From the IMG/VR virus record IMGVR_UViG_3300036826_000353, positions 1-32,604 of that record: a stretch of 32,604 nucleotides of DNA; one strand, given 5' to 3'. Numbering within the stretch: position 1 is the stretch's first letter; every line of letters starts with the position of its first letter. Below, one piece after another: positions 7,132 to 24,216 of the stretch. The notes under the pieces were generated by a model. That model ran no database searches and had not been told where the DNA came from. It saw only the letters and a program-made list of their open reading frames with translations. The translations under genes were made by a program, and so were the position numbers. Origin of the DNA: a virus.

Positions 7132-7270
7132 TTACCCCAAGGGATATGTGGCAACTATTCCAGGTCCGCACCCCGATATAGTGAAGGCTGTCGGGGATAC
7201 GCCGGAAGATGCCTTCAGCACTATGTCACTCAAGGTAATGAGGAGAAGCTTCAATGTCAAACAGGAATGA
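7043..7270 (+). CDS. hypothetical protein, 75 aa
   Basis: ATG at 7043 is preceded by AGGGG; the longer frame from 6989 is less likely because its extra residues are Ser/Thr/Gln-rich shadow sequence. The product has aromatic and basic residues (RNFEKGFPNRAWVLARH) and a short helix near the C-terminus (PEDAFSTMSLKVMRR). It overlaps the genes on both sides. No function can be assigned. Confidence 0.55.
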   Translation: MIRNFEKGFPNRAWVLARHPERVTQYLASSYPKGYVATIPGPHPDIVKAVGDTPEDAFSTMSLKVMRRSFNVKQE

Positions 7271-7607
7271 CGAGGGCCTGGAGATCGACCTGGAGCAGGT
7301 TTTGAACAGAAAGAAGGTGATTGAGGCCCTGGAGTCTGGGAAGCATAAGCAGATAACGAACGCCTTTGGACACTGGTGGAACCCCAAATCTGCTGTATGC
7401 TGGGCCGGTCTATGTATGAGGGTTCTAGACTACAACAGCGAAGACTTCCCATTTAAGCATTTTCCATCTGATTGGATAGGGAGAAAGTTAGGCATCTCGC
7501 CACAGTTAGTGCATGATTTTGTGTATGAAAATGATTGCGGCTGTTCCTTCTGGCTGCTTGCGGAGGAGATGAAGCGCCTCCCACCTCCGATCAAGATGCC
7601 TGTGTGA
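7254..7607 (+). CDS. hypothetical protein, 117 aa
   Basis: Start ATG at 7254, with GAGGAGAAG upstream, inside the end of the previous gene. The product is rich in Trp and Cys (GHWWNPKSAVCWAG, YENDCGCSFWLLAEE). The segment SDWIGRKLGISPQLVHDF reads as a helix-turn-helix, so DNA binding is plausible. No HTH family can be named. It ends before the structured leader of the gene at 7707. Confidence 0.65.
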   Translation: MSNRNDEGLEIDLEQVLNRKKVIEALESGKHKQITNAFGHWWNPKSAVCWAGLCMRVLDYNSEDFPFKHFPSDWIGRKLGISPQLVHDFVYENDCGCSFWLLAEEMKRLPPPIKMPV

Positions 7608-7630
7608 AACCCACTCTCTCACACAGGATA

Positions 7631-7690
7631 GGGAGGCTGGCTCCCCTCGTCCCGCAAGGAGTCAGTCTCCCGCCCCTTCACCGCGGGACG
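7631..7690 (+). other. pseudoknot-compatible leader before the gene at 7707
   Basis: A 14-base helix GGGAGGCTGGCTCC (7631-7644) with GGAGTCAGTCTCCC (7658-7671), fully paired if G-U pairs are counted, interleaves with CGTCCCGC (7648-7655) and GCGGGACG (7683-7690). The second helix ends just before the AAGGAG ribosome site of the next gene, so folding could control its translation. Confidence 0.5.
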
Positions 7691-7706
7691 TTAAGGAGTA
7701 TGTCGC

Positions 7707-7943
7707 ATGGCCGAAGAAGACGACGATGCCCAGCTGTCTCCGCAGGACATCGAGAAGTTGAAGACTGTGAGCAAGTATATCTCCCAGTCCCTTGCCCTTC
7801 TCAACGATATCCCTGAGGATGTCAGGGAGACGTGCGGTGAGCTGGATGATGCCATCTCCAAGCTGGAGGAGGCCGACGATCTGATTGGCACGTATATGCC
7901 GTCGGCCGAGGCTTCGGCCTCCGCGGACGACGACGGGGCCTAG
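7707..7943 (+). CDS. acidic helical protein, 78 aa
   Basis: Start ATG at 7707, with AAGGAG eight bases upstream. The product is strongly acidic (MAEEDDDAQLSPQDIEKLK ... ADDDGA) and helical with heptad-like leucine spacing, giving a likely small coiled-coil protein with a disordered acidic tail. Acidic phage proteins of this size can mimic DNA or bind host enzymes, but nothing specific is seen. The structured leader upstream suggests controlled translation. Confidence 0.7.
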   Translation: MAEEDDDAQLSPQDIEKLKTVSKYISQSLALLNDIPEDVRETCGELDDAISKLEEADDLIGTYMPSAEASASADDDGA

Positions 7944-7963
7944 CTCCGCGCCAATCAACGCCG

Positions 7964-8039
7964 CGTGAGGCGTGGCGTCGTTTCTCCCCGCCCTGGTGGT
8001 TCGGGTGTGGGGAGGACAAATCGGCCGCCACGCCTCACG
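7964..8039. other. long inverted repeat after the acidic gene
   Basis: CGTGAGGCGTGGCG (7964-7977) is perfectly complementary to CGCCACGCCTCACG (8026-8039), with an inner CTCCCC/GGGGAG stem (7984-7989 with 8009-8014). It fills almost the whole intergenic gap. There is no T-run; it may act as a structured RNA or mRNA barrier. Confidence 0.6.
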
Positions 8040-8119
8040 TAATGGAGCCTCCGCACACGGATAATAAAACGGCCAAGGTCGGGCCCGTCTGCCACCAATC
8101 AAGAGCTTGGAGAGATGGC

Positions 8120-8347
8120 GTGAGTAAGCTGTCATGGATAAAGCCCGAGCCGAAGGGTTTTAGGGATATATATTGGTGTCCCTATATGAATGAACCTGTT
8201 GTGTTGAAGTATAGGAATGGAACTAATGATAAATACTGTGAATTATGCGATAGTGGGTTAGATCATCACATCTTTATATGCCATATCAATCCTCATACCG
8301 AGAATGAAGATGGCAACCTCATGGAGAGAGTGCATGAAGAAAGCTAA
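8120..8347 (+). CDS. hypothetical Cys-containing protein, 75 aa
   Basis: The GTG at 8120 has GGAGAG five bases upstream and is preferred; an ATG at 8042 would give 101 residues but start against the inverted repeat. The product has CPY near residue 20, CELC near 40 and FICHINPH, a set of Cys and His that could bind zinc. The middle of the gene is noticeably more AT-rich than its neighbours (8160-8300), hinting at separate acquisition. Function unknown. Confidence 0.55.
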   Translation: MSKLSWIKPEPKGFRDIYWCPYMNEPVVLKYRNGTNDKYCELCDSGLDHHIFICHINPHTENEDGNLMERVHEES

Positions 8348-8483
8348 GGTAATCATAGCCACTATCATCGCCCTGACTATCCTTCCTGGAGAAGGGGATC
8401 GCTTTGAACAGCGGGGCGAGTGCTGTGTCTATAAGGGCAAGGACCAGGCCTGCGTTCCATGTAGGCCAACAAGGGAGAGTTAG
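8334..8483 (+). CDS. tiny secreted or membrane-anchored Cys-rich protein, 49 aa
   Basis: ATG at 8334 with GGAGAG upstream, overlapping the previous gene by 14 bp. The product starts MKKAKVIIATIIALTILPG, a classic signal-peptide or signal-anchor form (KK then a hydrophobic run). A short mature part follows with CC and CVPC cysteines. This suggests a small periplasmic or envelope peptide with disulfides. No family recognised. Confidence 0.6.
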   Translation: MKKAKVIIATIIALTILPGEGDRFEQRGECCVYKGKDQACVPCRPTRES

Positions 8484-8485
8484 CT

Positions 8486-8656
8486 ATGAGGATCAAGGGA
8501 ATTCAGCTGAACCTCACACTGATCGAGTTTGAGCAGCTGAAGAAGAAACTCACTGGCGATGCCAGGATGACGTCTATCATGGTAAAGATGGAGGCCATCC
8601 AGGCGAGGCTCGATGTCGCTAATAAGTTCCTGGAGCGACACACGGAGACAGGATGA
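8486..8656 (+). CDS. small helical protein, 56 aa
   Basis: ATG at 8486, two bases after the preceding stop, with GGGAGAG upstream. The product (MRIKGIQLNLTLIEFEQLKK...) has a strand then two helices with basic residues, compatible with a mini DNA-binding or coiled-coil unit. It ends in an ATGA overlap with the next gene (8653-8656). Confidence 0.6.
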   Translation: MRIKGIQLNLTLIEFEQLKKKLTGDARMTSIMVKMEAIQARLDVANKFLERHTETG

Positions 8657-8859
8657 AAGTCCCCTCTGGATCAACAGTTATCTGGGTTATGCCACCATAT
8701 CATCTGCGCATAGTCCAGTACCTCCTGGCCCAGCGCCTGGATAGCGTGACATGCTTCTGCTGGAAGAAGGGTGTGTGCTATATCATGCTGCCTCCAGGCG
8801 TTGACCAGGATAGGATGAAGGCGAAGCTCCATGGAGTAGAGTGGTTCGAGGAGAGATGA
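8653..8859 (+). CDS. hypothetical protein, 68 aa
   Basis: Starts in an ATGA overlap with the preceding gene. The sequence (MKVPSGSTVIWVMPPYHLR) alternates strands and short helices and contains the cysteines CFCW and CYIM. The pattern is compact and globular, without a membrane segment. Unknown family. Confidence 0.6.
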   Translation: MKVPSGSTVIWVMPPYHLRIVQYLLAQRLDSVTCFCWKKGVCYIMLPPGVDQDRMKAKLHGVEWFEER

Positions 8860-9071
8860 CATACATCTTTGGTCCCCGCAGGTTTCCAGACTGCGGGGAC
8901 TGCTGGCTGAGTGAAGGTCAGTGGTGGTGCGTAATGAACTGTGGAAAAGCGGAGACAGGAGATGGTAATGACCTGGTGGATGAAGCAGGGCCTAACTGCG
9001 GACATGCTCGGACTGCTGCCAGACATGATAAGCGAAGACGACCCAAGGCCAGCAAAGGAGCAGTTCGATAG
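8856..9071 (+). CDS. possible small Cys-rich protein, 71 aa
   Basis: ATG at 8856 overlaps the previous stop (ATGA), with GAGGAGAG upstream. The first 35 residues contain CGDC and WWCVMNC, a possible zinc site. The second half overlaps the next gene by 104 bp and is a basic shadow-like tail (KRRRPKASKGAV). It may be a real short gene with a long overlap, or only the 5' part may be meaningful. Confidence 0.4.
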   Translation: MTYIFGPRRFPDCGDCWLSEGQWWCVMNCGKAETGDGNDLVDEAGPNCGHARTAARHDKRRRPKASKGAVR

Positions 9072-9276
9072 CAACTATCAGCATGGAGGTGGATGGGTTG
9101 CTATGCCTAGGTTCTCGTTCGATCCTTCATCAAAGGCTATAAGATATCCAGGTGATCCACCCATGAGGCATATAGCACATACTCATCTGAGGGATGAGTG
9201 GATCCTGATATATCCCCATGCCTGGGTATGTATCGTGCAGCCAGATGGATCATTTGAAGTAGCGAGGATGGACTGA
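8968..9276 (+). CDS. hypothetical protein, 102 aa
   Basis: ATG at 8968 has AGGAG six bases upstream and is preferred over 8941 and 8962. The N-terminus is helical (MTWWMKQGLTADMLGLL), and the C-terminal half is beta-rich with aromatic residues (RDEWILIYPHAWVCIVQ). No catalytic motif is seen. It overlaps the next gene in TGATG. Confidence 0.65.
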   Translation: MTWWMKQGLTADMLGLLPDMISEDDPRPAKEQFDSNYQHGGGWVAMPRFSFDPSSKAIRYPGDPPMRHIAHTHLRDEWILIYPHAWVCIVQPDGSFEVARMD

Positions 9277-9455
9277 TGGCGCAGGAATTCAGAGTCATGC
9301 TGGACGTACCGTCTGACGTATCGCTCAAGGAGATGTGTGAGTACATCTCCGACGCCGTGAAGACACACAAGGGAGGGCTATCCCCAGACTATCCTATCTG
9401 GCACCTTGCACCGGAGTCAGTCATAGTCAAGGTAGTGCTAAAGAGACGTACGTAA
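9276..9455 (+). CDS. hypothetical protein, 59 aa
   Basis: Begins at ATG 9276 in a TGATG overlap with the previous gene. MAQEFRVMLDVPSDVSLKE suggests a strand followed by a helix (MCEYISDAVKTHKG), then a final strand (ESVIVKVVLKRR). The compact beta-alpha-beta layout is common among small phage accessory proteins. Unknown role. Confidence 0.6.
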   Translation: MAQEFRVMLDVPSDVSLKEMCEYISDAVKTHKGGLSPDYPIWHLAPESVIVKVVLKRRT

Positions 9456-9468
9456 ACGAGGCGACACC

Positions 9469-10008
9469 ATGTCCTATCCAGTCCCAGCCCCTTCGCATCT
9501 GCTCTTCATCGACGCATTCGAGCAGTTCACGCATGAGAGGCAGAAGCAGATTAACCAGGTAAGGGATCTGCATCGTCCCTATGAGATTGTCCGAGTATGC
9601 TTGGAGAAGTTCAAGCTACCGAATGACATAAAGATGAAGCTGGTCGAAGAAGGCATTGATGTTAGCATAGTCATAGGACCGGATGATCCGAAGGGGTACT
9701 TCGATCCCCTTATTACAGCCATCGGCGAAGATCTAAGGATCGCTGGACTTCACCCTGATGGACAACCTGCAATGTATGAGACTACAGGGGCATGGATTTC
9801 ATACTGGAGGTTGAGGTCTACAGATCAAATCAATCCGCCTACTATCACTATCTTAGTACAGTCGCCATTAGGAGGAACCAGGTACATCAAGATAACCAGG
9901 TGGGAGGAGACTAAAACATACAAAGCATACTGCTCGAAGTATGAGTGGCTAGACGAGCCACATGGAGAGGAGTCAAGGGACAATGAAGACGAACAGACGC
10001 CATTCTAA
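9469..10008 (+). CDS. hypothetical protein, 179 aa
   Basis: Start ATG at 9469 after GAGGCGACACC. The N-terminal about 70 residues are helical and charged (FEQFTHERQKQINQVRDL); the C-terminal part is beta-rich (WISYWRLRSTDQ, TITILVQSPLGG) and ends in an acidic tail. No known motif or cysteine cluster. It is one of the larger unassigned early proteins, and its last 26 bp overlap the HTH-like gene at 9983. Confidence 0.7.
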   Translation: MSYPVPAPSHLLFIDAFEQFTHERQKQINQVRDLHRPYEIVRVCLEKFKLPNDIKMKLVEEGIDVSIVIGPDDPKGYFDPLITAIGEDLRIAGLHPDGQPAMYETTGAWISYWRLRSTDQINPPTITILVQSPLGGTRYIKITRWEETKTYKAYCSKYEWLDEPHGEESRDNEDEQTPF

Positions 10009-15752: not shown

Positions 15753-16029
15753 ACTAGCAAAGCTTAGACGGCCCCTGAGTGAGATGACGAATGAGGAGGT
15801 ACATGAGCTCATTCGGAAGATCAGGGCAGATCGCCGCCTTACCAAGGAGCGACCTTCAGTAAAGGTGAAGAAGGCTCGTGCTAAGGATAAGGATAAGATG
15901 GACCTGGCAAAGCTACTTGAAGGGCTATCGCCTAAGGAGATAGCCGAGCTATTCGGAGGAACGGGGGATGATGCAGATCAAGGAAGTGCCGCTCAAGGAA
16001 ATCAAGATCAAGGACAGGGCACGCCTTGA
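15748..16029 (+). CDS. basic hypothetical protein, 93 aa
   Basis: ATG at 15748 with AGAGGGA upstream, overlapping the previous stop. MTNEEVHELIRKIRADRR is helical; a lysine-rich middle follows (KVKKARAKDKDK), then LLEGLSPKEIAELFGG, and a Gln/Gly-rich tail that overlaps the ParB-methyltransferase gene by 62 bp. It may bind nucleic acid; the family is unknown. Confidence 0.6.
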   Translation, partial: DRLAKLRRPLSEMTNEEVHELIRKIRADRRLTKERPSVKVKKARAKDKDKMDLAKLLEGLSPKEIAELFGGTGDDADQGSAAQGNQDQGQGTP

Positions 16030-17266
16030 CAATGGGGATATAGCAGGCCTGGCCGCCTCAATTGAGGAGAAGGGCCTGCTACAGCCTATTACAATAGATC
16101 AGAATAAGCGCCTGTTAGCAGGGGGTCGCAGGTTCCTGGCGCATGAGCATCTCAAGCGGACTACAATCCCCTGTATCATGCGTAGGGTCGAGGGGGTGAT
16201 AGATGCTGCTGAGATTGAACTAATCGAGAATATTCAAAGAAAGGACTTGCACTGGACGGAGAGGGCGGAGCTGGAGAAGAGGATCTTTCTGCTCAAGAAG
16301 GCAGCTGATCCTAAGTGGGGACATCGTGACCAGGCGGACATGACTGGAGTGTCTAAGAGTGCCGTGGGAAGGAGGATACAGCTAGCCGAAGCCATGGAGC
16401 TTCTACCTGAGCTAAAGGACTACAAGACGGAGGACGATGCCTGGAAGGAGTACAAGCGCCTCGAGGAAGACGTCGTAAGGACGCATTTGCATCAGAGAGT
16501 GCTTCCCCACATAAAGGAGGCTATGGACAGAGCAGGGGAGCACTTCATTATAGGAGATGCCCTGGCCGGTATGAGGCAGCTGGCAGATAGCACGTTCGGC
16601 TTTGCTGAGGTAGACACTCCATATGGAGTGGACCTCGACAGGAGGAAAAGTCGAAATCAAGATGACCATCTTATGGGTGACTATAACGAGTGGTCGGAGG
16701 GGGAGTATCCCAAGCTATTCGCGACCACAGCTCAAGAGGTATATCGTCTGCTCAAGGATAACAGCTTCGCAGTATTCTGGTACGGCATGTCTTGGCATGG
16801 ATCTGTTCTGACAACGCTACGAGAAGTTGGCTTCGGAGTGCCTGACATACCGGCAGTCTGGATTAAGGGAGACTCTGGGCAGACTGCAAGTCCTAATACA
16901 ACCCTTGGCAGCTGCTATGAGCCGTTCTTCCTTGCGAGAAAAGGATCGCCTGTCCTGGCCAAGCCTGGTCGGTCTAATGTGTTTAACTTCCCGAAGCTGA
17001 TCGGAACTACCAAGGATCATCCAACACAGAAGCCGCTTGTGCTGATGAAGATGATCCTTGAGACCTGCCTGTTTCCAGGATCCTATATCATTGTGCCATT
17101 CCTGGGATCAGGCGTAACGCTGCGGGCAGCATATAAGCTGGGACACACCGGCATGGGATGGGACCTAAGCCAGCAATACAAGAATGCTTTCCTGAAGCGC
17201 ATCATAGATGATCAGAAGGAGGACGATGATGACGGAGAGGGAGAAGGCGAAGATGATGGTGACTGA
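15968..17266 (+). CDS. ParB-like nuclease domain fused to DNA methyltransferase
   Basis: The 432-residue protein has an N-terminal ParB/Srx-like domain (about 1-100), including ITIDQNKRLLAGGRRFLAH and EIELIENIQRKDLHWTERA, then an HTH-like part (DMTGVSKSAVGRRIQL). The C-terminal methyltransferase has motif IV as DTPY (216-219), HPTQKP (351-356) and motif I PFLGSGVT (377-384), an order typical of N4/N6 (beta-class) enzymes. The usual DPPY is replaced by DTPY. It may methylate phage DNA to avoid restriction. The tail is strongly acidic. A start at 15971 is equally possible. Confidence 0.85.
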   Translation: MMQIKEVPLKEIKIKDRARLDNGDIAGLAASIEEKGLLQPITIDQNKRLLAGGRRFLAHEHLKRTTIPCIMRRVEGVIDAAEIELIENIQRKDLHWTERAELEKRIFLLKKAADPKWGHRDQADMTGVSKSAVGRRIQLAEAMELLPELKDYKTEDDAWKEYKRLEEDVVRTHLHQRVLPHIKEAMDRAGEHFIIGDALAGMRQLADSTFGFAEVDTPYGVDLDRRKSRNQDDHLMGDYNEWSEGEYPKLFATTAQEVYRLLKDNSFAVFWYGMSWHGSVLTTLREVGFGVPDIPAVWIKGDSGQTASPNTTLGSCYEPFFLARKGSPVLAKPGRSNVFNFPKLIGTTKDHPTQKPLVLMKMILETCLFPGSYIIVPFLGSGVTLRAAYKLGHTGMGWDLSQQYKNAFLKRIIDDQKEDDDDGEGEGEDDGD

Positions 17267-17432
17267 GGCTCTTGAGGTATTCAAGACTATTGAGATACCC
17301 ATAGAGCTTCAGGCATTCGGGCCTTCGCTGATACAGGTCCTGATGGGGATGTGTATGCAGGCGGTTATTCATACGAATGCTCTAAGGCATATTCAGATAG
17401 TCGTGCATAGCAAGGATGCTGGCCTTGAATAA
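17229..17432 (+). CDS. small helical protein, 67 aa
   Basis: The ATG at 17229 has AGGAGG six bases upstream and lies inside the acidic tail of the methyltransferase gene. MTEREKAKMMVTEALEVFK and SLIQVLMGMCMQAVIHTN form helices, and the end is IVVHSKDAGLE. It overlaps the polymerase gene by 17 bp. No family recognised. Confidence 0.6.
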   Translation: MTEREKAKMMVTEALEVFKTIEIPIELQAFGPSLIQVLMGMCMQAVIHTNALRHIQIVVHSKDAGLE

Positions 17433-19059
17433 GACATCGCCATGGGAAGAGGGAGACCCTGAGGCAGAGATATGCCTCCTGGGCACTTCTCCATCAAAGA
17501 TAGATATGTCCTGGAAGAGACCCTTTGTAGGGCAAGAGGGAGATGTCCTAAACGACTGCCTTCGGTCAGCAGGTATTGCCAGGAAACACTGTTATATCCT
17601 GAATCTGTGGAAGGAGCATGTTCAGAAGAATAAGCAGGATCAGATGTTCCTGCATAATAGGCTGATATACGACCCAAGGAAGGGCTTCACAGACGATGGA
17701 ATGGATGCAGCCCGTGAGGCACTGGCTAAGCTGGATGAAATCCGCCCTAAGGTCACAGTAACGCTGGGTCGCCCTGCCTTCCATATGATGGCATCTAACA
17801 CCAAGCCCTTGATGAAGTGGCGAGGTTCGCCCCTATGGTCGGAGCGCTTCAAGCGGAAGTATATACCAACCGTGCATCCAGATGCCACTATATATGGTGT
17901 CTATGCATGGCGCTTCTTCATTCAGAACGATCTGGCAAAGTCCAGGCTCGAGATGGACAGCTACGATCTGGTGCTGCCTCCAAGGGAGTTGATAATCGCA
18001 CCTACCTTGGCCGATGTCTATCACTTCATGCATGAGTGCAGGGAGGCCGGAGTATTTGCGACTGACATAGAGGTTATCAATCATCAGGTGTCATGTTTCA
18101 GCCTCGCCCCTAGGTCCGACCGGGCAATGACGATCCCGTTTGTAGATGATCGAGGGCAGCCATACTGGAGTGAAGACGACGAGGTTATTGTGTGGAAGTG
18201 GTATGAGTCCCTCATGTCTGATGAGAAGCTGATGAAGGTGAATCAGAACATAGCCTTTGATATCGGCTTCCTCCTGGATCGGAACCACATAAGGACGAGG
18301 GGGCCCATAGGCGATACCATGATTGCTCAGCATATCATATATCCACACTTTCCCAAGGGACTTGACTTTATTGCCAGCTACCATACGAGGGAGCCGTACT
18401 GGAAGGACGAGGGGAAGGTATGGAAGAACCCGAAGATTGACTGGCCTACATTCCAGCGATACTGTGGAAAGGATGCGGCGGTTGCCCTTGAGGCATGGTC
18501 TCTCCTGTCCGACGAGATGAGTGAGGGAGGATATTGGGATACTTATAATATGACTATAGATATGCTAGACTCCCTAATCTACATGACAGTGCGGGGCCTG
18601 GCGGTAGATAGGGATCGACTAGAGGCGACTAAGACTGAGTTGGAGACGACTATAGAGGAGAAGCAGGCCGAGCTTGATGCGATAACATCCAGCTGGGGGC
18701 ACCTGAACCCAGCATCGCCTAAGGCATGTCAGGAGTATTTCTATGAATACCTTGGAATACATCCATATAAGAATGCCGAGGGCGGCATTACTACGGATGA
18801 CCGGGCCATGAGTCGCATCTTTCGTAAGTCGATTGAGGGCAGCAAGGAGGCAAAGCTCGTACAGGAGATAAGGGCACTGAGGAAGCTGAAGGGAACCTAT
18901 ATAGATGTCACCCTGGACCCCGATGGGCGTCTAAGGTGCAGCTGGAACCCACGAGGAACATGGACAGGTCGTCTGTCCAGCAGCCAGACCATCTTTGGAA
19001 CTGGTATGAACCTGCAGAATCTACACCCCAAGTTTAAGGGGTTTATCATAGGAGGATAG
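17416..19059 (+). CDS. DNA polymerase A, N-terminal half: UDG-like, 3'-5' exonuclease, thumb
   Basis: The 547-residue protein has three parts. Residues about 15-180 resemble family 4/5 uracil-DNA glycosylases (LLGTSPS, KRPFVGQEGD, TLGRPAF, TVHPDA), but the usual four Fe-S cysteines are not evident. Residues about 215-385 hold an intact proofreading exonuclease: ATDIEV, NQNIAFDIGFL and YCGKDAA. The rest is the polymerase thumb and early palm, with TWTGRLSSSQ and MNLQNLHPKFKGF. The protein stops (TAG) just before motif A. The missing part is encoded separately at 19778-20746. An AGGAGG in its last codons serves the endolysin gene. It must act with the second half to synthesise DNA. Confidence 0.9.
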   Translation: MLALNKTSPWEEGDPEAEICLLGTSPSKIDMSWKRPFVGQEGDVLNDCLRSAGIARKHCYILNLWKEHVQKNKQDQMFLHNRLIYDPRKGFTDDGMDAAREALAKLDEIRPKVTVTLGRPAFHMMASNTKPLMKWRGSPLWSERFKRKYIPTVHPDATIYGVYAWRFFIQNDLAKSRLEMDSYDLVLPPRELIIAPTLADVYHFMHECREAGVFATDIEVINHQVSCFSLAPRSDRAMTIPFVDDRGQPYWSEDDEVIVWKWYESLMSDEKLMKVNQNIAFDIGFLLDRNHIRTRGPIGDTMIAQHIIYPHFPKGLDFIASYHTREPYWKDEGKVWKNPKIDWPTFQRYCGKDAAVALEAWSLLSDEMSEGGYWDTYNMTIDMLDSLIYMTVRGLAVDRDRLEATKTELETTIEEKQAELDAITSSWGHLNPASPKACQEYFYEYLGIHPYKNAEGGITTDDRAMSRIFRKSIEGSKEAKLVQEIRALRKLKGTYIDVTLDPDGRLRCSWNPRGTWTGRLSSSQTIFGTGMNLQNLHPKFKGFIIGG

Positions 19060-19066
19060 CCAAGCC

Positions 19067-19462
19067 ATGACATCTGCCTTCAACTGGAGCCTCCGCTCCT
19101 CCAAGGAGCTAACCGGCATCCACCCAGACCTCCGAGCAGTAGCGGACAAGGCTCTTAAGCTATCGCCGCAGGACTTCATAGTCATCGACGGTATGCGGAC
19201 AATAGCCGAGCAACAGCACTATGTCGCAGTCGGTGCAAGCCAGACGCTCAAGAGCCGTCACCTCCACGGCTTCGCAATCGACGTGGTTCCCTTGGTGATG
19301 AAGAAGGTGCGGTGGGAACTTCCATTCTTCGTTCCCATCGTCGTGGCCTTCAAGGACGCAGCCAGTGAACTTGGCATCCCTATCGTCTGTGGATATGACT
19401 GGAAGGGACATTGGGATGCTGGGCACTTTGAACTGAGAAAGAAGGAGTACCCAGATCCATGA
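19067..19462 (+). CDS. M15-type peptidase endolysin (VanY/L-Ala-D-Glu peptidase-like)
   Basis: The 131-residue protein has SKELTGIHPDLRAVADKA at the start, DFIVIDGMRTIAEQ, then SRHLHGFAIDV, which supplies the SxHxxGxAxD zinc motif, and DAGHFEL near the C-terminus as the third ligand. It is a compact M15 peptidase that cuts peptide cross-links or stems of peptidoglycan. There is no signal peptide, so a holin would be needed for release. Its place inside a replication locus, between two polymerase halves, is unusual; the holin and spanin-like genes lie about 9 kb away on the other strand. Confidence 0.88.
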   Translation: MTSAFNWSLRSSKELTGIHPDLRAVADKALKLSPQDFIVIDGMRTIAEQQHYVAVGASQTLKSRHLHGFAIDVVPLVMKKVRWELPFFVPIVVAFKDAASELGIPIVCGYDWKGHWDAGHFELRKKEYPDP

Positions 19463-19539
19463 CAGTTCCCCTGACACTAATGTTCATGGTGCTAGTAGCG
19501 CTAGTCGTCATAGCATTCGCCATCAACGGGGATGAGTGA
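19459..19539 (+). CDS. 26-aa membrane peptide
   Basis: ATG at 19459 overlaps the endolysin stop (ATGA). The peptide, MTVPLTLMFMVLVALVVIAF plus six residues, is essentially one transmembrane helix. It is a candidate lysis helper or pinholin-like peptide because of its position directly after the endolysin, but the very small size makes this uncertain. The stop overlaps the next start (TGATG). Confidence 0.5.
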   Translation: MTVPLTLMFMVLVALVVIAFAINGDE

Positions 19540-19778
19540 TGCCTGCAAAGAGTAAGTATGCCAAGTATGATAATATTATCCTGGAGAAATATGAGGAGCT
19601 GGGACCGCAGATGCTGGGACAGGAACTTGGCATGCCGTGCAACTCAGTATGCAACCGATACTATGCACTAACCGGCCTCACAGGGCGACGGCCTAAGCCC
19701 AAGCCGATAGCTGTTAGTGATAGACACGAGCTACTTCCGGCCACCATCACTCTCCCTCGTGTGAGCCTAGATCGCTAA
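19539..19778 (+). CDS. HTH-like protein between polymerase halves, 79 aa
   Basis: ATG at 19539 in a TGATG overlap; its stop overlaps the ATG of the polymerase C-half (TAATG at 19776-19780). The segment NIILEKYEELGPQMLGQEL followed by MPCNSVCNRYYALTG reads as a homeodomain-like helix-turn-helix. A basic Pro/Lys linker (GRRPKPKPIA) and a short tail follow. No nuclease motif (HNH, GIY-YIG or LAGLIDADG) is seen. It could be a DNA-binding remnant of a mobile gene or a regulator. It translationally couples the second half of the polymerase. Confidence 0.65.
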   Translation: MPAKSKYAKYDNIILEKYEELGPQMLGQELGMPCNSVCNRYYALTGLTGRRPKPKPIAVSDRHELLPATITLPRVSLDR

Positions 19779-20746
19779 TGCTACTCGTAGAATTCGACCT
19801 GGCTGGAGCCGAGTGGGTCGTTGTGGCCTATCTCTCTGGTGATCCCAATATGCTGGAGGTAGTCAACAGTGGCAAGAGTCCGCATGTTGTTACGGGAACG
19901 CTTATCTCGGGGGCATCGGAGGAGTTTGTTCTGGCAGAGCATAAGGCTGTTGGGGCTAATACTGATCCTGACACTATTATGGGACTTCGTGAGTCTCTTG
20001 ACGTGCCTAGCGGGATCTTCTTACCTAGGTCTATGTCCATAAGACAGGCGGGGAAGAAGAGTAATCATGGGTGCAACTATTATATGCGATACAAACGTTT
20101 TGCTCTTGAGAACGAGATGCCGGAGGCCGATGCAGAGCCTATAGTTAAGTTCTATTCCGAGAAGGCATACCCTGGCCTGCAGCTATATTGGGAGGATATC
20201 AGAGAGACCCTACGAAGACAGGGGCGTGTTCTTACTAACTGCTTCGGCCGGAAGGTTCGGATGGTGGGAGAGTGGGGCGTAGAGCTATGGATGGCAGCTT
20301 ACAGCTTTAAGCCTCAGTCAACTGTGTTCGATGTATGCAGAAGAGGAATGGTCAGAGCTTTTCACGACTATAGTCTTGACTTCCTCAGCATGGAGCTTGG
20401 GGCACAGGTACATGACAGTCTCATGGCTGCGTATCCAATACCATCAGATGATAATGGCTGGTACAAGCTGGCTGCATTTATCCACAAGATGGTCTATGGC
20501 CATATGCGAAGTGAGATACAATATACAGGAGTTGTTGATAACATAGAGAGATCATTCTATCTGGGAGTTGATGCCAAGATAGGACATAGCTGGGGCGATA
20601 TGCAGGCTGTTAAGGTGACAAGGGATCTTGACACTCTTGTTAGGGAGTTAAAGCAGATCCTTAGCCTCCCCCCGGAGAACGACGCCGACGAAGAAGCTGA
20701 ATGGTCGGCCAATATGCTCCGGCATCCAGAGCTGCCATCTGCTTAG
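19778..20746 (+). CDS. DNA polymerase A, C-terminal half: palm and fingers
   Basis: The 322-residue protein begins right at motif A (VEFDLAGAEWVVV, catalytic Asp), then has motif B RQAGKKSNHGCNYY (R-x3-K-x3-H-x3-Y; the position usually Phe or Tyr is His) and motif C QVHDSLM (second catalytic Asp). It contains all polymerase catalytic residues but lacks the thumb, exonuclease and early palm, which are on the gene at 17416-19059. The two must associate. There is no good ribosome site, so translation is probably coupled to the preceding gene. The last 86 bp overlap the convergent transglycosylase gene. The C-terminus is acidic. Confidence 0.9.
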   Translation: MLLVEFDLAGAEWVVVAYLSGDPNMLEVVNSGKSPHVVTGTLISGASEEFVLAEHKAVGANTDPDTIMGLRESLDVPSGIFLPRSMSIRQAGKKSNHGCNYYMRYKRFALENEMPEADAEPIVKFYSEKAYPGLQLYWEDIRETLRRQGRVLTNCFGRKVRMVGEWGVELWMAAYSFKPQSTVFDVCRRGMVRAFHDYSLDFLSMELGAQVHDSLMAAYPIPSDDNGWYKLAAFIHKMVYGHMRSEIQYTGVVDNIERSFYLGVDAKIGHSWGDMQAVKVTRDLDTLVRELKQILSLPPENDADEEAEWSANMLRHPELPSA

Positions 20747-21629
20747 CTGGATCTTCAAAGGAGGGAACCTTGATGCCACTGCCGACAATAGCCCTACCGG
20801 CGGCACTTAGTCCCCTCCCTATGCCCGCCAATCCAACACCTGAGAAGATACCTCCGACTGTAGTTCCAGCTGATGGCTCGATCCCAGAGACGATGGGCGT
20901 AGTACCATCAATTGGCACTGATACTGGATGTCCTACCATATCCTCGTATATGGATGTCTTAGGCGGAGCGAGAGCTGTCAGCTCAGCCGCTGACATATCC
21001 TGAAGACGACGACCCTGCGGCTCGCTGGGAGTAGCTCCTTCTGGAGCAGCGCTAGCGACTCCTATATCAACCTGCGTCGGTGTTACACGAGGGATGCCAC
21101 CCCTCTCAAGCCTCGCCTCCCAGGCATCCATGAATTCCCTGCTAGTCAGGTCAGGACCAAGGGATCGAGATGCCTGCGGTATGTTACCAGCTACAGCCCT
21201 CTTAGCCCAATCTATCCCCTTCTGACGTCCCTCCGCAGTGTCAGCCATGTTCATCCAGGCAGGGCGATCTGGATTATTCATGTGTGCCTGAAGCCCACCC
21301 CATCCTTGATTATGAGCAACCCATAGCTCAACAGGCGTCGCTTCCCTTCCATACTTATTCCGGAACTCTTGCTTGTATCCAGCGAACAGACGGCCGGCGG
21401 CCATAGCATTCTGTGTCGGATCGAATATATCTCCGGTTCCGCCAGCCCTCTTGAACTCCGACGGGCTAAGCTGGAAGAGGCCATAATAGGAACCTGTGGT
21501 AGCCCTGGGATTGCCACTACTCTCTATACCTGCAATAGCCCGTAGGAAGTTGGCTGGTATCCCTACACGCTGGGATGCCAGGTTTATGGCCGACATGACG
21601 TTAGGGGAGAAGCCTCTAGTCCTTGCCAT
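20661..21629 (-). CDS. lytic transglycosylase (SLT) virion protein, 322 aa
   Basis: The start at ATG 21629 has GGGAAG upstream and overlaps the preceding gene by 14 bp; a longer frame to 21737 is shadow sequence. Residues 20-110 form an SLT domain: IPANFLRAIAGIESSGNP with catalytic Glu36, then YYGLFQLSPSEF and VELWVAHNQGWGG. The C-terminal 200 residues are Ala/Gly/Pro-rich and may form an internal or ejected part. Such proteins are packaged in podovirus virions and open the cell wall during DNA entry. The 3' end overlaps the convergent polymerase gene by 86 bp. Confidence 0.85.
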   Translation of the reverse strand: MARTRGFSPNVMSAINLASQRVGIPANFLRAIAGIESSGNPRATTGSYYGLFQLSPSEFKRAGGTGDIFDPTQNAMAAGRLFAGYKQEFRNKYGREATPVELWVAHNQGWGGLQAHMNNPDRPAWMNMADTAEGRQKGIDWAKRAVAGNIPQASRSLGPDLTSREFMDAWEARLERGGIPRVTPTQVDIGVASAAPEGATPSEPQGRRLQDMSAAELTALAPPKTSIYEDMVGHPVSVPIDGTTPIVSGIEPSAGTTVGGIFSGVGLAGIGRGLSAAGRAIVGSGIKVPSFEDPAKQMAALDAGAYWPTIQLLRRRRSPGGG

Positions 21630-24216
21630 TGCTATCTTCCCTATTACCACTAGGCACGGGAACGCCACGAGATAGAATACGCATGCCCTCGCCACTTTGT
21701 GCACGAGCCCGTGCAGCGGGAGTGATCTTGAACTCAAGGCCTCGCTGAATAGGTTGATTGCCGTGTCCTATGTCTAACGACATCCTAGTCTTACCGTTAA
21801 TCGTGTGAATAGGCTGGGGCCTCGGAGAGCCTCGATCAAACTCTCGAAGTACAGCAGATAGTCGCTGTGGAAACACTGTATCATACAGCTTAGCGATGGA
21901 CCCCTTAATCCCAGGATTATACACGCTAATAGCTGCCGCATTAGGAATAGTAATCGACTCGGCTCCGCTATCGATAGCTTCCTTGATAAGGCGTCGCATA
22001 AGGGGATCAACCCAATGGTTAAGAGCCGACATCATTACGTGATGAGATGAAGTGAGGCCTTTGTTGAACAAGTTAGTCCAATCCGACTGAATCTGATTTG
22101 CCATCAGTGTAGGCCTGCCGTCGGCATTCCTCTCTATGGATGTCATAAGAAAGCCATACGTATTAGGATCACGAGGAAAGTGTCCACCTATGAAAACACG
22201 ACCTGTCTTCTCAAGCTCCCTGAGACGCTGTATTTCATTAGCGTGTTCACCCCTAATCTCACGAACGAGCCCCCGACCTACAGCTGGTATACTCTCTGCG
22301 GGGATATTCCAGTATGAACCAATAACAGACGCATGTGCTGGGCTCATGCCTCTTAGGATATTACGAGCTTCCTCTGCCTCGTTCGTATGAAGGCGCTGAA
22401 CAATTTCCCTATGTGTCCTATTCCCAGAATTAAACGTATAATTAGTATATCGAGTCCTTGGAGCAGTTGCATTTACCTCTGATGAACGTATCAATGTCTC
22501 GACAGGGATGCCAGTAACCTTGGTCAGAGCTGCCCTGACAGGGGCATTGAGCCTGGCCATACGCAGACCTCGGAAGCTCGATACAAACGCATTCAGACCT
22601 TGAAGTGATCCAAGGTTATCCTCCATGTTAATTGCAAGCCTAGAAGTGATGCTATCAGATGCAGCGCCGGCGGGTCCTCCTTCTGCTACGAGAGCCCTCC
22701 TAAACTCCGCCTGTCCCTCTTCACTCGACAGCTTATCAAAGGCGGCCTCAGTTTCAGGGGAATAGCGAGGTCTCTCATATACGACCTCAGATGTTCTGAG
22801 ACGATGTTCGTCTATATAGTCCTCAACCTCCTTTCGTGTCACCATTCTTGGTTGGACAAGCCTAACTGTATTGCCAGCCTCATCCTTGTGTAAGCCTCTT
22901 ATAGTGTTATAGTACTTATTATTGTTGATATAGTTCTGTGTAGCAAGTTCAAGCTGTCCTTGCAGCCAGTTTATCTGATTCTGTATATGGGGAATATCAC
23001 CTTGAGGAGCTTCCCTAAGATATCTTTGTTGAATACTTATATCATTCTGAAATTTCTGGATACGATTATAGTTATCAAGGAGAGCACGCCGAGCGTTAGC
23101 AACTCCCTCTCCAAGGAGAAACTTATCCAGATCCATAGCCTGGATTTCTGTCTCTTTCACCCCTCCCTTAAGCATGTTGCCGATCACGTCCTCAGCCGTC
23201 GTCCTAGGAGGAAGAAGACCCGTAGCACGTTCGGCATGACTGTAGAGGCCAGTAGGATCAGCAGAGATGTCACGGAGCTGCGGCCTCGGGGTAACTGGAC
23301 GACTTCCACCACCTGCTCCCAGAGAGGGCCCAGCTCCGCGAGCGACAGCCCTGCCAGCAGCTCCTGGAACTCCACCTGAGGTAAAGGCACCTGCAATCTG
23401 TTGGGCCTCAGCAGCCATTTGTTCGTTAGGGACTATAAGGCCATTGTCATAGCGTTCCTTGGCTCTGGCTATGATATGGGGGATATCAAGGATATTCTTT
23501 GCAATCTGTGGAAGGGCTACGACGGCTCTTCCTGTATTGGGATCGACAGCTATAGGTGCTATCGTTCCCCTAGCCTCAAGAGTATCAGCCGGCTCCGTTG
23601 GAGCAAATACCTGCTTCGTCTTAGGGTCGTATGCAGCACCAGGGGGAAGCTGTTGCTCTATGGTTCCATCAGGCTTCTTTATGCCCATGCCTGTATCGGT
23701 AGGAACAACCTCCCCGTATAGATAATAGTGCTGCATCGTCCCTTTCTTCCCGGCGACCATGGGATTAGATGGACGATCAGCTCCTATATCAGGTGTGAAA
23801 GCGTGGCTGTATGCCAGCTCTACATCACTAGGGCTTACATTATGCGTAATATTTCTAAGGCTTCGCATCTCAAGGAAACGACGAGTATCCTGCTCCATGG
23901 GACCATGGAGCTGGGCATAACGGGCCTCTGCCTCGTCGGGAGATGCGTAGGAAGGAAATGCACGAAGGCCGCCGGCCTCTTCTATATATCGGAACAGCTC
24001 GTTCCGATCAGTGACTATCTTCCCATTCCATACTGTCGGAACGAGATATGCCCTGCCGTCAGGGCCAGTAAATGTGGCTTGATACAGAGTGGAACGAGAC
24101 CCGTCGGGGTTGTCCACACCTCCTGGGCCCCACAGGTTTGATAGATGACGCTCATAGAGAGCCCGCTCCTCAGGAGTCAGGTTAAAAAGTTCTTCGGTGT
24201 TACCAGCACCTGCCAT
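21616..24216 (-). CDS. large internal virion protein, 866 aa
   Basis: The ATG at 24216 overlaps the stop of the gene before it (TAATG). Residues about 42-83 contain YLVPTVWNGKIVTD and ELFRYIEEAGG, a motif seen in many phage virion-associated proteins. Residues 323-372 (GLYSHAERATGLLPP, GGVKETEIQAMDLDKFL) resemble domains of large polyvalent proteins. The remainder is helical and charged. Neither a membrane segment nor an obvious enzyme site is visible. Its size and position beside the transglycosylase suggest an ejected inner-core protein. Confidence 0.75.
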   Translation of the reverse strand: MAGAGNTEELFNLTPEERALYERHLSNLWGPGGVDNPDGSRSTLYQATFTGPDGRAYLVPTVWNGKIVTDRNELFRYIEEAGGLRAFPSYASPDEAEARYAQLHGPMEQDTRRFLEMRSLRNITHNVSPSDVELAYSHAFTPDIGADRPSNPMVAGKKGTMQHYYLYGEVVPTDTGMGIKKPDGTIEQQLPPGAAYDPKTKQVFAPTEPADTLEARGTIAPIAVDPNTGRAVVALPQIAKNILDIPHIIARAKERYDNGLIVPNEQMAAEAQQIAGAFTSGGVPGAAGRAVARGAGPSLGAGGGSRPVTPRPQLRDISADPTGLYSHAERATGLLPPRTTAEDVIGNMLKGGVKETEIQAMDLDKFLLGEGVANARRALLDNYNRIQKFQNDISIQQRYLREAPQGDIPHIQNQINWLQGQLELATQNYINNNKYYNTIRGLHKDEAGNTVRLVQPRMVTRKEVEDYIDEHRLRTSEVVYERPRYSPETEAAFDKLSSEEGQAEFRRALVAEGGPAGAASDSITSRLAINMEDNLGSLQGLNAFVSSFRGLRMARLNAPVRAALTKVTGIPVETLIRSSEVNATAPRTRYTNYTFNSGNRTHREIVQRLHTNEAEEARNILRGMSPAHASVIGSYWNIPAESIPAVGRGLVREIRGEHANEIQRLRELEKTGRVFIGGHFPRDPNTYGFLMTSIERNADGRPTLMANQIQSDWTNLFNKGLTSSHHVMMSALNHWVDPLMRRLIKEAIDSGAESITIPNAAAISVYNPGIKGSIAKLYDTVFPQRLSAVLREFDRGSPRPQPIHTINGKTRMSLDIGHGNQPIQRGLEFKITPAARARAQSGEGMRILSRGVPVPSGNREDSNGKD

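Follow-up and report, generated by a model that had tools for sequence, protein, structure and literature searches.

A viral family A DNA polymerase gene divided before motif A, with exchangeable genes in the gap

The viral record IMGVR_UViG_3300036826_000353 (32,604 bp, analysed over its full length and called the window here) encodes a family A DNA polymerase in two genes, which are separated by 718 bp holding an endolysin gene and two further open reading frames (ORFs). Breaking up a replicative polymerase is usually considered difficult, and here the cut lies a few residues from a catalytic carboxylate. The locus thus raises the question of whether the two genes still yield one polymerase, how the gene came to be divided, and what the endolysin has to do with it. 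We consider it highly probable, from sequence comparison and structural models, that the window and its clade encode a two-subunit family A polymerase, derived from an ancestral UDG-exonuclease-PolA gene that was cut once, before motif A.

Two genes that cover one polymerase

The polymerase genes of the window are as follows (lengths in amino acids, aa).

17416..19059, + strand: N-half of the family A DNA polymerase, 547 aa, with a UDG-like domain at about aa 12-157, a 3'-5' exonuclease at about 187-370, and the thumb and first palm strands at about 376-547
19778..20746, + strand: C-half of the family A DNA polymerase, 322 aa, with motifs A, B and C (PF00476, E 5e-14)

The N-half matches the Pfam families UDG (PF03167, E 4.4e-15), DNA_pol_A (3e-13) and exo (2e-4), as well as PHROG 17, DNA polymerase (E 1.7e-46). 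An initial annotation, made from the letters of the window, had overlooked the UDG domain at its start. The same annotation correctly placed the N-half stop before motif A but quoted KGF as the end; the protein runs four residues further, to MNLQNLHPKFKGFIIGG. The C-half begins with MLLVEFDLAGAEW and carries motif A as FDLAGAEW, motif B as RQAGKKSNHGCNY and motif C as VHDS, with the motif A Asp, the motif B Lys and Tyr, and the motif C His-Asp all present. The key columns of these motifs are invariant or nearly so in 53 relatives, and Exo I, II and III are also intact in the N-half, as had been claimed. DNA synthesis by the split PolA is predicted. In the UDG domain (17449-17886) the window reads GTSP, while most relatives have GEAP or GQAP; with this motif, the domain may lack the catalytic acid typical of family 4 UDGs.

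AlphaFold (AF2) gave the N-half and C-half pLDDT values of 94.0 and 93.4. In comparisons with solved structures, the N-half model spans residues 324-696 of Klenow and 296-643 of Bst (Z about 21). The C-half model spans 604-832 of Taq, 647-876 of Bst and 699-928 of Klenow (Z about 19-22, the highest, 22, with Bst), and together the two models show the Pol I fold across the exonuclease, thumb, palm and fingers. Since the N-half ends at Bst 643/Klenow 696 and the C-half begins at Bst 647/Klenow 699/Taq 604, only a turn of two to three residues appears to have been lost. The unsplit relative L066 (related loci are given L numbers) reads FKKVLFAD-EG-YILAELD (FADEGYILAELD), against FKGFIIGG, a stop and then MLLVEFD in the window, so that the turn alone is replaced. 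By both comparisons, the two ORFs jointly cover an intact homologue.

Single-sequence and profile searches of viral contigs, followed by profile classification of all ORFs, found unsplit relatives and at least 33 further contigs divided at the same place as the window. In informative close pairs, dN/dS (the ratio of nonsynonymous to synonymous substitution rates) was 0.03-0.16 for both halves, several other pairs being uninformative because their silent sites are saturated or their sequences too similar. Trees of the N-half and C-half correspond (r 0.88) with no strongly supported conflict, which indicates that the halves were inherited together. In each of the 34 C-halves a start codon precedes the catalytic Asp by 3-10 codons, making splicing unlikely. 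Enzymes in pieces are known to function: gp43A and gp43B, the two halves of the phage 25 polymerase, purify together and synthesise DNA, and Aeh1 has an active NrdA that is likewise split (PMC2988022). The initial annotation proposed a functional split enzyme rather than a decayed gene, and this is probably correct in view of the 34-member clade, the low dN/dS and the way in which the modelled halves tile Pol I.

On this reading, a single cut in the ancestor of the phage clade would have divided a UDG-exonuclease-PolA gene at the beta-turn immediately ahead of motif A, leaving two separate genes. Both polypeptides would be made from one polycistronic message and would pair noncovalently via the palm sheet to give an active polymerase. 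The gap, because both of its ends are now ordinary gene ends, could then take up and exchange genes, which in the window's subclade are lysis genes and elsewhere small ORFs and genes of nucleotide metabolism. A gene nearly always abuts the C-half start, and C-half translation is therefore probably coupled to whichever gene precedes it. Several points weigh against this reading. The clade members (the window and 33 others) are all metagenomic contigs, with genomes that are often incomplete and no isolate among them, and the structural models are of each half alone. Overlapping gene ends are also frequent in compact phage operons, so that overlaps alone are no proof of regulatory coupling.

History of the cut

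The UDG-exonuclease-PolA family contains three architectures: uninterrupted, cut between the exonuclease and the thumb, and cut ahead of motif A. The relative frequencies of these types should not be read as population estimates, since the searches were made with conserved peptides from the split clade. The uninterrupted type is about 750-916 aa long, with inserts of about 300 aa in L120, L129 and L157; those of L120 and L129 are intein-like. Its closest annotated representative is the 826-aa polymerase of Desulfofustis phage LS06-2018-MD01. The exonuclease/thumb split is found in 31 loci (among L017, L043, L044, L046-L078 and others), which comprise two clades of 27 and 3 together with Caulobacter phage Kuura.

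A tree of 104 polymerases groups the 34 loci that share the window's split on a single branch, with SH-aLRT support of 96. A mixture-model tree of 85 rows requires two changes of the split label, the second being the unrelated L143. The closest relatives of the split clade have either an undivided polymerase or one that is cut at another place. Separate cuts at this site or close to it occur in distant relatives (L140, L145 and L154; L144; L153; L088; L143), with unsure placement of long branches such as L144.

Individual loci show further variation. The N-halves of L008 (4700-4844) and L021 (4151-4340) have about 48 and about 60 extra C-terminal residues. The L143 polymerase (7136-9826) breaks at GTN|MQNWPH; its gap holds an ORF that is weakly LAGLIDADG-like, and motif B carries an intein-like insert. 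L143 thus probably represents an intron and an intein within one polymerase gene; Rfam gave no confirmation of the intron.

The gap, its cargo and its surroundings

The features between the polymerase halves of the window are listed here.

19050..19055, + strand: AGGAGG, a Shine-Dalgarno-like site of the M15 gene, inside the last N-half codons (from sequence)
19067..19462, + strand: M15-type peptidase endolysin, 131 aa (PF13539, E 1.5e-7; PHROG 465 endolysin, E 6e-47)
19459..19539, + strand: 26-aa membrane peptide, with an ATGA overlap with the M15 stop and a hydropathy peak of 3.2
19536/19539-19778, + strand: 80-aa ORF with a GTG start at 19536 or an ATG start at 19539
19776..19780, + strand: TAATG stop/start overlap from the last cargo ORF to the C-half (from sequence)

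The remaining junctions are ATGA at 19459-19462 and TGATG at 19537-19541. The ORF positions, these links and a gap of roughly 720 bp had been described correctly by the initial annotation, as had the M15 endolysin. Its label of helix-turn-helix-like for the 80-aa ORF finds no profile support, there being no family match in Pfam or PHROG. The M15 protein contains both zinc motifs, SxHxxGxAxD and WDxGHFE; by motifs and profile it is a PHROG 465 endolysin, with predicted roles in peptidoglycan cleavage and lysis. The 26-aa peptide could be a holin-like partner, and short membrane peptides also adjoin the endolysin in L014 and L015. The M15 gene and the peptide probably form a small lysis module in the window. 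A peptide-pattern search of viral contigs for the window's endolysin confirmed none.

Across the clade the halves stay and the cargo varies. The gap ranges from -20 (L079) to 3424 bp (L015, about 3.4 kb), with unrelated contents. GH25 muramidase with a peptidoglycan-binding domain is found in L002, L004, L005, L006 and L008, M15 peptidase in the window, L014, L015, L020, L021 and L098, and a putative 214-aa endolysin in L009/L010. ThyX is present in L011, L014 and L015, and MazG-like genes in L004-L007, L009, L012 and L020, the latter by sequence resemblance, since their PHROG matches are unnamed families. A subtilase occupies the gap of L045, and small ORFs without assigned function are found in L030-L041 and others. 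In L079 (6930-7060) there is no cargo, and the two halves share 20 nt read in different frames; this locus could be an empty site, a gene with a frameshift or the result of an indel from sequencing.

Within the window's 17-member subclade, 11 members have an endolysin in the gap by domain and one more has a putative endolysin. Family searches of whole records placed the relatives' GH25 and gap M15 genes in the gap only; a second M15 match in the L015 record, at the far end of the contig, is probably due to end redundancy. In L007, L012 and L126, which form one clade, the split is kept and the M15 gene lies 17-25 kb away, so that the split is independent of the endolysin. The initial annotation singled out the endolysin at the split: the association is real and recurs in close relatives, but it is not a defining feature, as gaps in the wider clade hold unrelated genes or nothing. 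Within the window's subclade the endolysin thus often resides in the slot, but it is no part of the split itself.

The origin of the cut bears on one alternative that is compatible with a two-subunit polymerase. A homing endonuclease could have divided the gene long ago, as mobE did in nrdA, and later been lost. Homing endonucleases are known makers of genes in pieces (PMC2988022), and mobile elements target this region in relatives, as seen in the intein-like insert of L129 and the LAGLIDADG-like ORF of L143. However, no homing endonuclease was identified in the part of the split-clade cargo that was profiled, and the three gap ORFs of the window have no endonuclease match in Pfam or PHROG. 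The overlapping, cargo-free halves of L079 further suggest that a simple frameshift or internal start would suffice. We regard a lost endonuclease as a possible origin, though one with the odds against it.

A different proposal is that the split is kept for regulation, C-half synthesis requiring translation of the lysis or other cargo and thereby setting polymerase dose or timing. In 27 of the 33 loci that carry cargo, a gene of at least 50 aa reaches into the C-half start, whereas shuffles gave an expectation of 2.4, and most of the window's subclade has an endolysin gene in the gap. Shuffling breaks up real genes, however, so this excess demonstrates tight gene packing, from which translational coupling is only inferred. 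The identity of the cargo is not conserved, L007, L012 and L126 remain split with the endolysin far off, and overlaps of this kind are common in phage operons. Gene order suggests that any tie between lysis and polymerase expression would be a shared polycistron, and regulation as the reason for the split is doubtful. We are equally tentative about a broader proposal, in which the beta-turn before motif A would be a natural and reused PolA breakpoint that serves the clade as a stable gene dock, and in which cargo (often lysis genes) would be translated before the catalytic half, tying polymerase assembly to cargo expression.

It is very unlikely that a self-splicing intron or a trans-splicing element rejoins the halves, with the endolysin as an intron-borne passenger. 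The wider family does seem to include polymerases with introns and inteins, as at GTN|MQNWPH in L143, with its LAGLIDADG-like ORF, and in L120 and L129. The authors of the MEP401 study also suspected an intron, whose involvement they left undecided (PMC10580990). At gathering thresholds, however, Rfam returned no matches in the window and nine other loci, a result that a divergent core could escape; together with Pfam this agrees with the earlier remark that the window has no visible intron core or homing endonuclease. The start codon just ahead of motif A in every C-half of the split clade is usually overlapped by a cargo gene. N-half tails vary freely, as in L008 and L021, and gap length and content vary as widely. 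A decaying pseudogene or an assembly artefact, to which one gene in two pieces on a metagenomic contig might point and the latter of which the initial annotation had named as a possible refutation, is rejected as having almost no likelihood, because 33 independent contigs share the break and the motifs are intact with low dN/dS. A split intein was also considered and rejected: the N-half ends four residues past KGF, the C-half starts six before the catalytic Asp, and there is no Hint match.

The split polymerase lies in a phage replication module of ordinary type, with flanking + strand genes for helicase-like, exonuclease, Sak4-like annealing, SSB-like and ParB-methyltransferase proteins, followed by virion genes on the - strand. 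Directly upstream (15968-17266) is a gene that joins the N-terminal domain of ParB to an N6/N4 DNA methyltransferase; a ParB-like gene is likewise upstream of the unsplit PolA of Desulfofustis phage LS06-2018-MD01. A transglycosylase-domain gene (20661-21737, - strand) overlaps the C-half end by 86 nt. No RNA families (Rfam) or tRNAs were found in the window, phage records contained no nucleotide-level relative of it, and a C-half pattern search of GTDB genomes for prophages or hosts confirmed none.

Comparison with known systems

Splits of this kind are already known in MEP401 and gp43. What is new here is clade-wide inheritance, exact tiling, convergence on one turn and exchangeable lysis cargo. 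The cut has been kept through deep divergence and was made at or near the same turn separately in MEP401, in L140, L145 and L154, and in L144, providing a natural design for a split Pol I. The locus also shows an essential gene turning into a stable insertion slot for other functions.

The PolA of Desulfofustis phage LS06-2018-MD01 (PHROG 17) has the same domain order as the window at about 30% identity, but is encoded by one gene. Caulobacter phage Kuura and the exonuclease/thumb split clade belong to the same family and have two genes with small ORFs between them; unlike the window, they are cut between exonuclease and thumb. The Kuura N part is annotated as hypothetical, an example of how annotation can miss such enzymes, and the word 'split' is absent from the Kuura paper. 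In T7, the gene 3.5 lysozyme is a cell-wall enzyme inside the replication gene cluster, where it lies between genes and leaves the polymerase uninterrupted.

The gp43A/43B proteins of Aeromonas phages 25 and 44RR (PMC2988022) resemble the window in that two genes, with other sequence between them, encode a phage replicative polymerase. They differ in belonging to family B, in the position of the cut, and in having a seg endonuclease or an untranslated spacer, and no lysis genes, between the halves. Aeh1 NrdA (PMC2988022) is likewise an essential enzyme in two pieces, functional in Aeh1; unlike the window, its gap holds the mobE homing endonuclease.

In the literature on split PolA, the only case found was that of MEP401 and MEP402 of OM43 phages (PMC10580990). 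MEP401 belongs to another PolA group, with no UDG domain reported and with a gap that consists of a single 77-aa ORF and no endolysin. Its gp13 gave no N-half profile match, and the C match was weak. Shared descent of the MEP401 and clade splits was rejected, given the unmatched gp13 and nearest relatives of the clade that are unsplit or split elsewhere. As in the window, however, PolA is encoded in two genes, an N part with the exonuclease and a C part from motif A onward, and the MEP401 cut falls at the same turn, between FLSRYGE and its stop and MILNADAKALEW, with one small ORF in the gap.

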